From contig CANFJP010000007.1 of NCBI GenBank assembly GCA_947447485.1, forward strand, positions 1-32,217: DNA of 32,217 bases, read 5' to 3'. The position numbers and the translations under genes were made by a program. The notes beneath the pieces were generated by a model that searched no databases, was not told the origin of the DNA, and saw only the letters and a program-made list of their open reading frames with translations. This DNA comes from Chitinophagaceae bacterium (GTDB lineage: Bacteria; Bacteroidota; Bacteroidia; Chitinophagales; Chitinophagaceae). Below are positions 4,301-9,309 of this stretch, in pieces (position 1 is the stretch's first letter; each line of letters opens with the position of its first letter).

Positions 4301-7072
4301 TTACAACGTTCTTTTCACTTCTACTTCCTCAAACGCTTCTACAATATCTCCTGCTTTTACATCATTGTAATTTCTGATAACCAATCCGCACTCCATTCCT
4401 GAAGTAACTTCTTTGGCATCATCACGGAAACGTTTTAAGCTAGCCAGTTCACCTGTAAAGATTACGATGCCATCGCGTACCAATCTGATACGGTTGTTTC
4501 TTGCAATCTTACCATCAAGTACCTGACAGCCGGCAACGGTTGCTTTATCAAAACGATAGGTTTCTCTAATTTCCACATTGGCCAATACTTTGTCTTCCAC
4601 AGTGGGTTCAAGCATTCCTTCCATCGCGCTTCTAATCTCTTCGATGGCGTTATAGATAATAGAATACATTTTGATTTCAATAGATTCATTTTCTGCCAAT
4701 CTTGCTGCTTGCAAAGATGGACGAACGTTAAATCCTATGATGATTGCATCAGACGCATTAGCAAGAGTAACATCACTTTCTGTAATAGCACCCACCGCTT
4801 TGTGAATCACTTTTACTACGATTTCTTCTGTACTTAATTTTTGTAATGAATCACTCAATGCTTCTACCGATCCATCCACATCTCCTTTGATGATTACATT
4901 CAATTCTTTAAAGTTTCCTAATGCCAAACGACGACCAATTTCATCGAGTGTAATATGTTTCTTCGCACGCATTCCTTGCTCACGCAAAATTTGTCCGCGC
5001 TTATACGCTGTTTCTCTTGCGTCTGCTTCGTTTTCAAAAACCTTAAATGTTTCACCCGCCTGAGGCGCTCCGCTCAAACCGAGTAACAATACCGGTGTGG
5101 AAGGAGGTGCCACTTCAACGCGTTGATTACGCTCATTGTACATCGCTTTTACTTTACCAAAGTACTGACCAGATACGATCATGTCTCCCTGGCGAAGGGT
5201 GCCGTTTTGTACAAGAATGGTGGCTACATAACCACGGCCTTTATCCAGCGATGCTTCAATAATGGTTCCCGAAGCTTGCTTTTTTGGATTGGCTTTTAAT
5301 TCCAGAATATCGGTTTCAAGTAATATTTTTTCCATCAACAAATCAATGTTCATTCCTTTTCTTGCACTGATTTCCTGACTTTGAAATTTACCACCCCAGC
5401 TTTCCACCAAAATATTCATGGTAGACAACTGCTCTTTTATTTTTTCCGGATTGGCTCCGTCTTTATCAATTTTGTTGATAGCAAAAATCATTGGTACACT
5501 GGCAGCCTGTGCATGAGAGATGGCTTCTTTTGTTTGAGGCATCACTGCATCATCTGCTGCTACCACGATTACGGCAATATCAGTTACTTTGGCACCACGT
5601 GCACGCATAGCCGTAAAGGCTTCGTGACCCGGTGTATCTAAGAAAGTGATGGCACGGCCATCTTTTAAGGTTACTTCATAAGCACCAATATGCTGCGTGA
5701 TCCCACCGGCTTCCCCTGCAATTACATTGGTATTTCTAATATAATCGAGCAAAGATGTTTTACCATGATCTACGTGACCCATGATCGTAACAATCGGTGG
5801 TCTTGGTACAAGATCTTCTGGATCGTCTTCCTCATCATCTACTTCTAATTCTGCGGCATCGTCTACGCCTATAAATTCTACTTCATAATTAAATTCACTT
5901 GCTACCAATTCAATTACATCTGCCTCTAGGCGTTGGTTAATAGAAACCATGATGCCCAAATTCATACACTTACTGATAATATCTGCAAAGCTCACATCCA
6001 TCAAACCCGCCAATTCACTTACAGAAATAAATTCAGTTACTTGTAATTTATTGCTTTCTACGCCAGCTTCCCCCAATTGGTCAGCCATCTCTTCGCGTTT
6101 CGCTTTACGATATTTCGCTTTCAAGCTTTTTCCACGACCACCTGCACCTGCAAGCTTGGCTTGTGTTTGCTTTAATTTTTCCTGAATTTCTTTTGCATCA
6201 ATTATTTTATCTTCTCTGCGTACAGGCGTTCCTGTTGATGGACGTTGAAAACGATTGCCTCCTTGCTGTCCTGGACGAGAAGGGGGTCCACCAGGTGAAG
6301 GCTTATTGCCTCTTTGTGCTGGATCTTGTTGGGCAGGCGTTCCTGCTTTTTTCTGAATAGGAATACGCTTGCGCTTTTGCCTGTCTTCGTTTGATTCTTT
6401 TTTAGGCCTTGTATCACTATCAACTGGAAGGGTAATTTTTCCAAGAATTTTTGGACCAGTAAGTTTTTCTGCTTGAATGTTCTCAATGGTTGCAGGAACA
6501 TCTTCTGCCACAGGTGCTGGTGGTGCAATAGCTTCCGCATCTGTAAGATTCTTCTTTTTAGTGCCGGTTTCTTTTACTGGTTCGGCAGGCTCTTCTTTCT
6601 TTTTTCCTTTTTTAGGTCTGGTAGAAGACTCGATAGAATCTAAATCAATTTTATCTAACACCTTAGGAGATTCCAATTCGGGCGCATCAATCTTTGTAAT
6701 AGAAGAGGCTTTTTTCTTTGCAGCACTGGTTGCTTTCTCTTCTTCTGTTTCTGCCGGATCAGTTGCTTTTTCTTCGGCTTTCTTAGGTTTTTCTTCCTTC
6801 TTTTTAATAGAAAGATCTTCTTCGTCTCTTTTCTTTTTACCTTCTCCGCCAGCATTCTTAGGAAGATCTAGCTGCGCAGCCTTTTGCTTATTGGCTTTGT
6901 CTTGCTGAAACTCCGACTGCAACACACGATACATTGATTCCGTGAGTTTAGACGTAGGCTTAAGATCGTCGACATTGAAACTTTTAGACACAAGGAATTC
7001 TATCAAGGTATGGGTACCTATGTTAAACTCCTTGGCCGCAGCCATCAACCTTGGTGTGTTTGCTTCTGACAT
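4301..7072 (-). CDS. infB: Translation initiation factor IF-2
   Basis: 923 aa; [38 protein letters not shown] motifs; long charged N-terminus. Confidence 0.98.
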
Positions 7073-7139: not shown

Positions 7140-8390
7140 TTATTCTTTTTCGAATTCTTCTTGCAATATTCTTCTGATGTCTGTGATGGTTTCTTTCTCA
7201 AGATCGGTTCTGCGTTCTAACTCTTCTGCAGTAAGATCTAATACAGAACGGGCTGTATCGCAACCAACTCTTTTCAACTCATCAATAATCCATGCTTCAA
7301 TTTCATCACCAAATTCTTCCAAATCGATATCAAATGAATCTTCTTCCCCTTCATTGTCGCGGAACACATCAATTTCATATCCTGTCAATTCGCATGCTAA
7401 TTTAATATTTGCTCCACGACGACCAATGGCCAGTGAAATTTGATCTGGTTTTAAATAAACCTTCGCATGAAGTTTTTCTGTATCCATGTCGATGCTGGTA
7501 ATCTTTGCTGGAGTTAATGAACGCTGAATCAACAATTGTGTATTAGCTGTCCAGTTAATTACATCAATGTTTTCATTTTTAAGCTCTCTAACGATGCCAT
7601 GTATACGACTTCCTTTCATCCCTACACAAGCTCCTACTGGATCAATTCTGTCATCATAGCTTTCTACAGCTACTTTTGCTCTTTCTCCTGGATCTCTTAC
7701 TATTTTCTTCACCACGATTAATCCGTCAAATATTTCGGGAACTTCAATCTCTAATAATTTTTCAAGGAATGAAGGACTGGTACGTGACAGTATAATAATA
7801 GCCTGATTGTTTTTTAGTTCAACTTTTTTTACCACTGCGCGAATGGTTTCTCCCTTTTTAAAATAATCGCTGGGTATTTGTTCAGATTTTGGAAGCAACA
7901 TTTCATTGCCATCTTCATCAAGAATCAATACTTCTTTTTTCCATACCTGATACACTTCCCCACTAACGATTTCGCCAATGCGCTCTTCATATTTCTTAAT
8001 AAGAATATTCTTTTTAAGATCATTGATACGTGCAGCCAATGTTTGCTTTCCAGCCAATATTGCCCTACGACCAAATTCTTTTTGAATATCCACTTCTTCA
8101 TACAACTCTTCTCCCACCTGGTAATCAGGTTCAATTTTAATTGCATTTTTATATTCAATCTCTGTAAGGGTGTTGTACAGATCATCGTCATCTACGATGG
8201 TACGTCTTCTAAAGATTTCTAAATCACCTTTCTGGTCATTTACGATAACGTCGAAGTTTTCATCACTGCCGTATTTTTTACGAATCAATGTTTTAAAAAC
8301 ATCTTCCATTACTTTCATCAGGGTTGGACGATCAATGTTTTCTGCGTCTTTAAACTCCTGAAACGATTCAATCAAGTTAATGCTTGCCAT
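7140..8390 (-). CDS. nusA: Transcription termination/antitermination factor NusA
   Basis: NusA N-terminus, S1 and KH domains (VGMKGSRIHGIVRELKNENIDVI; AIGRRGANIKLACELTGYEIDV). Start taken as MASINLIESF (8390) rather than the ORF start at 8414. Confidence 0.96.
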   Translation of the reverse strand: MASINLIESFQEFKDAENIDRPTLMKVMEDVFKTLIRKKYGSDENFDVIVNDQKGDLEIFRRRTIVDDDDLYNTLTEIEYKNAIKIEPDYQVGEELYEEVDIQKEFGRRAILAGKQTLAARINDLKKNILIKKYEERIGEIVSGEVYQVWKKEVLILDEDGNEMLLPKSEQIPSDYFKKGETIRAVVKKVELKNNQAIIILSRTSPSFLEKLLEIEVPEIFDGLIVVKKIVRDPGERAKVAVESYDDRIDPVGACVGMKGSRIHGIVRELKNENIDVINWTANTQLLIQRSLTPAKITSIDMDTEKLHAKVYLKPDQISLAIGRRGANIKLACELTGYEIDVFRDNEGEEDSFDIDLEEFGDEIEAWIIDELKRVGCDTARSVLDLTAEELERRTDLEKETITDIRRILQEEFEKE

Positions 8391-8450: not shown

Positions 8451-8915
8451 TTAAAATTTTATCAGAACTTTTGTTTGTTTTATATCAGTAAAAGGAATCG
8501 ACAAATTATGCAATACTGCTTTTTTGCCTTTCCCTTCGGTGAACTCAATGGTAATGTTGTTTTCATCAGCAGCCATCAACTTGCCTTCTTTTTTTGTGCT
8601 GTCATTCATCGTTACTTCTACATTCCGCTCAATATTCTTAATGTATTGCCTGTGTAATTTGAATGGCTCTTCTGTACCCGGACTGGAAACCTCTAAAGAA
8701 AAATCTCCATCGGGATACATGCCCATTTCTTCCATTTGCTTATAAAGCGCTCTATTTATTTTGATGCATTTCTCAATTCCCAACCCGCCATCCGCATCCA
8801 AGTAAATTTTGAAATTATTGATGGGTTTTACCTTGATTTCCACTAAAAAAATATCCCCTTCCAGCAAAGGAGTCAGTAATTTTTTTACAATTTCTATTTG
8901 TGTTTCGTTGCTCAT
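8451..8915 (-). CDS. rimP: Ribosome maturation factor RimP
   Basis: GDIFLVEIKV...ALYKQMEE...DFSLEVSSPGTEEPFKLHRQY is RimP-like; located upstream of nusA-infB. Start taken as MSNETQIEIVKK (8915) because the ORF extension to 8999 crosses a promoter-like site and a hairpin. Confidence 0.92.
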   Translation of the reverse strand: MSNETQIEIVKKLLTPLLEGDIFLVEIKVKPINNFKIYLDADGGLGIEKCIKINRALYKQMEEMGMYPDGDFSLEVSSPGTEEPFKLHRQYIKNIERNVEVTMNDSTKKEGKLMAADENNITIEFTEGKGKKAVLHNLSIPFTDIKQTKVLIKF

Positions 8916-8920
8916 GGTAT

Positions 8921-8954
8921 TAAAAAAGAAGAAGGGAACGATTCCGTTCCCTTC
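8921..8954 (-). terminator. Terminator-like hairpin in the rimP leader (candidate attenuator)
   Basis: Minus strand GAAGGGAACG-GAAT-CGTTCCCTTC (perfect 10-bp stem) followed by TTCTTTTTTA; about 5 nt before the rimP ATG. Confidence 0.7.
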
Positions 8955-8976
8955 CATTTCACTCTTATTTCGAATA

Positions 8977-8984
8977 CAAAGATA
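8977..8984 (-). promoter_or_regulatory. Putative -7 box TATCTTTG of the rimP-nusA-infB operon
   Basis: Matches TAnnTTTG; no good TTG -33 box at the expected spacing. Confidence 0.5.
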
Positions 8985-9060
8985 TGAAAACTTGGTCAAT
9001 AAGCGAAAAGATCTGTTTAGACAAGCCTAAAATTTAACAGCCAAATTATATAAGCAGTAC

Positions 9061-9072: not shown

Positions 9073-9309
9073 ATGTTTAAATTCATTCTAGAGCTCATTG
9101 TTTTTTATTTTCTATACAAATTTGTGTTTGAATTCATCATACCTATATATAATGCTACCAAGCAGGTAAAGCAGAAAATGAACGAAATGCAAGAAAAAAT
9201 GGGGAAAACAAGCCAAAAAAGCAACCCTACGCCTAATAAATCTGCTGATAAAACAGGCTTTTCTAATCAAATGAATAGCGAATACATTGATTATGAAGAA
9301 GTTAAGTAG
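9073..9309 (+). CDS. DUF4834-like small membrane protein
   Basis: 78 aa; N-terminal TM MFKFILELIVFYFLYKFVFEFIIPIYNATKQVK then charged tail (YIDYEEVK). Confidence 0.7.
   Translation: MFKFILELIVFYFLYKFVFEFIIPIYNATKQVKQKMNEMQEKMGKTSQKSNPTPNKSADKTGFSNQMNSEYIDYEEVK

Follow-up and report, generated by a model that had tools for sequence, protein, structure and literature searches.

NusA is present in nearly all bacteria, and the homeostasis of its level has been worked out mainly in Bacillus subtilis and Escherichia coli. In B. subtilis the nusA operon is controlled by NusA-stimulated termination in its leader (Mondal et al. 2016, according to passages of the review PMC12288461), and where terminators of this species depend on NusA, their hairpins tend to be weak or their U tracts interrupted (PMC12288461); in E. 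coli, rimP is preceded by terminators and the operon is regulated by its own product NusA (PMC6511841). Naville and Gautheret (2010) described the rimP-leader, the attenuator family that they met most often, as a lone terminator with no antiterminator whose stem has the form GGGc(...)gCCC and whose favoured effector is NusA (PMC2965389); Firmicutes and Gammaproteobacteria are named in the main text of that paper, Bacteroidetes are not (PMC2965389). A structured 5′ element upstream of rimP has also been seen in the transcriptome of Flavobacterium psychrophilum, where it is conserved in Flavobacteriaceae and has no Rfam hit (PMC9723704). This element shares phylum and gene with the locus described below, but in the main text of that paper it is only listed, with no structure or mechanism (PMC9723704).

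The window, by which we mean the whole 32,217-nt stretch of Chitinophagaceae DNA that was analysed, carries rimP, nusA and infB on its minus strand, and we consider it very likely, from the letters and their conservation, that the short leader in front of them is an intrinsic terminator acting as the attenuator of this operon. The features of the locus are:

8977–8984, minus strand: −7 box TATCTTTG, which matches the Bacteroidota −7 promoter element TAnnTTTG (by sequence; consensus from PMC7366714)
8955–8972, minus strand: A-rich leader start, with the predicted transcription start near its 5′ end (from the spacing to the −7 box and conserved A residues)
8945–8954, minus strand: 5′ arm of the predicted terminator stem, GAAGGGAACG (sequence, folding and pair counts)
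8941–8944, minus strand: loop GAAT, which varies in sequence and length among relatives
8931–8940, minus strand: 3′ arm of the predicted terminator stem, CGTTCCCTTC (sequence, folding and pair counts)
8921–8930, minus strand: U tract TTCTTTTTTA, including a genus-conserved C (by sequence)
8451–8915, minus strand: rimP, first gene behind the putative attenuator, 154 aa (best model PRK02001, 118.8 bits, slightly below the NCBIfam model cut-off of 123)
7140–8390, minus strand: nusA, probable source of the feedback factor (TIGR01953, 362.8 bits; ATG at 8390)
4301–7072, minus strand: infB, translation initiation factor IF-2 (TIGR00487)
9073–9309, plus strand: divergent 78-aa ORF upstream of the leader (from the ORF listing)

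The leader stem is a perfect 10 bp with a 4-nt loop (8954–8931), and 22 A-rich nt lie between it and the −7 box on the minus strand. Behind the U tract come ATACC and the rimP ATG at 8915–8913 (minus strand), which places the ATG 15 nt from the stem end and about 60 nt from the box. The preliminary description of this DNA had reported the −7-like box, the 10-bp stem, the GAAT loop, the U tract and the ATG spacing, and all of its letters and coordinates are correct; its observations that no minus-strand gene lies upstream and that the six-frame rimP ORF spans the hairpin likewise hold, the latter up to a TTG at 8999. The conserved RimP protein begins at the ATG at 8915 and not at this TTG. A role of the hairpin as the terminator of an upstream codirectional gene was rejected, since the upstream neighbour is divergent. 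The hairpin folds with −15.8 kcal/mol (z −4.7; 0 of 200 shuffles equal or better), and the 32-kb window holds no other perfect stem of 10 bp or more with a loop of 3–8 nt; shuffled windows contain a mean of 0.15 such stems, and in 0 of 40 shuffles was there one with a T-rich tail. Its 24-nt sequence is present in a single copy in the 1.83-Mb genome.

Comparison with the described systems shows both likeness and difference. The locus resembles the rimP-leader in its G-rich 5′ arm, C-rich 3′ arm, U tract, operon specificity (below) and position, the terminator and U tract of that family lying 4–130 nt before rimP and those of the window 15 nt before it. The stems differ, however, in that GGGc(...)gCCC was described whereas GGG(R)(R)C...G(Y)(Y)CCC is found here, with the C-G pair closing two pairs further in; exact GGGC...GCCC stems are present in some other classes of the phylum. 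As in the B. subtilis nusA leader, a 5′-leader intrinsic terminator would set the transcription that enters the nusA operon, and by its predicted position it sits between the promoter and that operon; the B. subtilis leader, on the other hand, is about 180 nt long (PMC2965389) as compared to the short box-to-start distance here, and a NusA response is here only predicted. The E. coli metY-rimP-nusA-infB operon similarly has terminators between promoter and rimP, but its leader includes several promoters, a tRNA gene, more than one terminator and RNase III sites (PMC6511841), whereas here there are one box and one hairpin. The class of element is one already described as the rimP-leader, and the Bacteroidota rimP/nusA leader has its own stem signature. 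We judge it likely overall that the element is an antiterminator-free attenuator, the Bacteroidota form of the rimP-leader, with NusA as its likely tuner. Because the Rfam rimP family (RF01770) has no match at the locus at E up to 10, the Bacteroidota leader is probably unannotated in these genomes; nothing in Rfam reached the gathering threshold at the locus, and up to E 10 there were only sub-threshold matches. A search of the whole genome with RF01770 gave a sole weak match on another contig (G000:C27:3623–3751, L082; 34 bits, below the cut-off), which is probably a chance match to a terminator.

Among relatives, rimP was detected in 56 of 60. In the window's own genus and order a hairpin and T tract precede rimP in all 50 upstream regions read. 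The preliminary description had held that an unconserved stem or U tract would refute an attenuator; the stem, U tract and −7 box are retained in 34 of 34 genus-level homologues, and 193 of 196 rimP upstream regions across the phylum have a hairpin and U tract (a single hairpin with dG ≤ −8 kcal/mol and at least 5 T within the next 8 bases), as compared to 10% of dinucleotide shuffles, the 196 regions being phylum and class samples from related genomes whose counts give breadth and not independent events. The antisense strand passes in 41%, above the shuffles, as expected of a palindrome with A-rich flanks. Of the three exceptions, one (L117) does have a good hairpin, which at −7.8 just misses the threshold, and a clear leader hairpin was not found in L298 and L299. 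An apparent absence of the hairpin from several genomes in a perfect-stem scan was discarded, as most of those read have imperfect or shifted hairpins. As a control, 23 other genes in the window were held to this threshold and only 2 reached it, with −10.0 and −8.1; the −10.0 hairpin is at the rimP end, before nusA. All 34 genus members have a TAnnTTTG box 10–30 nt upstream of the stem, where 1.5 would be expected from shuffles, and so do 102 of 106 class members, where 5.9 would be expected. The median gap in the genus is 20 nt (quartiles 19–21), and a spacer of about that length offers hardly any space for an alternative structure. The distance from stem to start codon varies among leaders, with a median of 14 nt. 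In two close relatives (L009 and L011) about 90–100 nt separate the hairpin from the aligned rimP start, and an ATG directly follows the U tract; the stretch in between may hold an insertion, a short leader ORF or a start further upstream. Except near contig ends, no case of rimP and nusA located apart was noticed among the listed places.

The Bacteroidia stem core GGG(R)(R)C...G(Y)(Y)CCC was found in 121 of 156 leaders of that class. Since MAFFT misaligned the 5′ arms at differing loop lengths, base pairs were counted in 95 unique rows anchored only at GGG/CCC with the outer pairs free; pair +3 is GC in 63, AT in 29 and GU in 3 of these rows, and at pair −2 there are 44 rows with GC and 37 with AT. 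At five varying pairs (−3 to −1, +3 and +4) none of 2000 shuffles reaches the observed pairing, a comparison that ignores relatedness and so is supportive and not a formal probability, and the anchor itself requires purine/pyrimidine at +3 and +4, so that pairs −1 to −3 constitute the free covariation test. Pairs −4 to −6 are not above the shuffles, and so the conserved stem stops there. Information content is about 2 bits in the stem and U tract and about 0.3 immediately after the U tract. The C inside the U tract is present in 30 of 34 members of the window's genus; the position is mostly T in the remaining Bacteroidia, and the U tract is mostly clean in other families. Outside Bacteroidia the hairpin and U tract are kept with different stems, AAAGTGGG...CCCACTTT, CGCCCG...CGGGCG (for example in L121, L133 and L137) and ATGGGC...GCCCAT (for example in L113, L128 and L140). 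Some of these classes have the inverse arrangement, a C-rich 5′ arm, where position and U tract persist and the sequence is replaced. What persists throughout the phylum is the predicted terminator, and the sequence signature persists within the class.

An exact scan for GAGGGGACN(3–8)GTCCCCTCTTT over a public collection of about 85,000 genomes gave at least 119 loci, and among the matches listed rimP starts at most 200 nt downstream in 112 of 119. Six of the other 7 listed matches have records: five (L148, L165, L193, L204 and L214) are recorded as organisms outside Bacteroidota, and the Mesonia sequence (L202) stops 88 nt after the hairpin, too short to judge. GGGAAC...GTTCCCTTCT has one locus in each matching genome of the genus, the rimP leader. 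As far as such scans and predicted folds can tell, the leader motif is specific to the operon and antiterminator-free, as in the rimP-leader family.

Genomes that lack rimP bear on the identity of the effector. There are 16 sampled genomes without a rimP match, and RimP_N is above the Pfam cut-off in 0 of 16 of these as compared to 10 of 14 control genomes; several Bacteroidota families have seemingly lost rimP, a 30S maturation factor, yet keep nusA and the attenuator. Of the 13 rimP-less genomes in which nusA is present, 9 have a GGG...CCC hairpin and T tract with a −7-like box upstream directly before nusA, between 34 and 166 nt ahead of its start and so near that a rimP would not fit in between (loci L322 and L325–L332 in genomes G326, G357, G416, G319, G388, G218, G254, G428 and G167; L332 was read by eye). 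Four of the nine belong to family f77, one to f84, one to f116 and three to f52. Two rimP-less genomes of family f102 have a weaker version of the element before nusA, and no leader hairpin was found within the 411 nt available before nusA in a third f102 genome or before nusA in L333, from a 0.5-Mb genome. In the locus L328 further AAAGTCCC...GGGATTTAGGGCA-type repeats occur between the hairpin and nusA, in the 0–166 nt before the gene, as if the leader were partly duplicated. Simple loss of rimP would initially leave the leader in place; in f52 and f77 the leader is kept with an intact stem across several genera or species. We found no prior description of such rimP-less leaders in the open-licence literature, and the leader directly before nusA in these genomes is new here.

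Which protein, if any, acts on the leader can be weighed from these data. Feedback by RimP, the product of the first gene, has been named as a possibility (PMC2965389) and would fit an element that stands before rimP almost everywhere, but the retention of hairpin, U tract and box before nusA in nine genomes from four families without detectable rimP disfavours RimP as a general effector and makes this explanation very improbable. As far as gene content can, the same leaders point to NusA as the source of feedback, with IF2 and general factors such as NusG as further candidates. NusA feedback is favoured indirectly also by the B. subtilis analogy, in which NusA autoregulates through leader termination (passages of PMC12288461), and we regard NusA as reasonably likely to be the main effector. 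Against tuning by NusA, the stem is strong, and only the interruption of the U tract resembles NusA-dependent terminators. That strong stem, together with a short leader that fits no antiterminator or sensing domain, could also belong to a constitutive brake in which the terminator fixes a low output of a strong promoter with no feedback. A weaker promoter would, however, achieve the same with less, and retention throughout the phylum precisely at the operon of a termination factor suggests feedback, which B. subtilis has, so we give the constitutive brake rather little credit.

Stem sequence is conserved within the class more strictly than termination requires, which speaks against a plain terminator. 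It could be explained if the hairpin acted after transcription, in protection of the mRNA 5′ end, as an RNase or protein site or in control of rimP translation, and both the nearness of the stem to the start codon and the RNase III sites of the E. coli operon (PMC6511841) are in keeping with this. But the U tract is conserved as much as the stem, conservation stops right behind it, every class has a T tract behind the hairpin although stem sequences differ between classes, and the distance to the start codon is variable; a post-transcriptional role is therefore quite improbable. The −7 box and terminator could also make up a small RNA gene in its own right, about 50 nt long and in front of rimP by chance, and small RNAs of Bacteroides thetaiotaomicron have these two features (PMC7366714); this we find hardly credible, since strong conservation is limited to the stem and U tract with the rest mostly unconserved, and since in other classes the stem sequence is wholly different while its position before rimP is constant, which fits a cis element. 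Returning to attenuation of the operon, it is conceivable but unlikely that NusA or another elongation factor of Bacteroidota recognizes the sequence of the GGG(R)(R)C/G(Y)(Y)CCC stem, fixed throughout the class, which would make it a dedicated nusA-linked recognition element and more than a terminator of fitting strength.

In the mechanism that we infer for this bacterium, including the start site, the termination itself and NusA as effector, RNA polymerase would begin about 20 nt ahead of the stem; some polymerases would terminate in the U tract and free a leader of about 50 nt, and the remaining ones would read through into rimP-nusA-infB. The C within the U tract may make termination incomplete and open to tuning, and more NusA would give more termination and less nusA operon mRNA, closing a homeostatic loop. 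Since the hairpin is kept nearly phylum-wide, even in genomes without rimP, the element probably serves as an in-built brake through which NusA holds down its own synthesis, a type of brake known from other bacteria. A one-hairpin attenuator with a leader of about 55 nt that extends through a phylum is a very simple natural test object, and the rimP-less lineages tell NusA and RimP apart as candidates for feedback and open the NusA hypothesis to a direct test. Conserved A residues, GGAAAAAGAAACAAA-like in relatives, are also present 6–17 nt before the GGG (8955–8972 in the window), and these may act as a signal of the early-transcribed region or form an A tract opposite the U tract.
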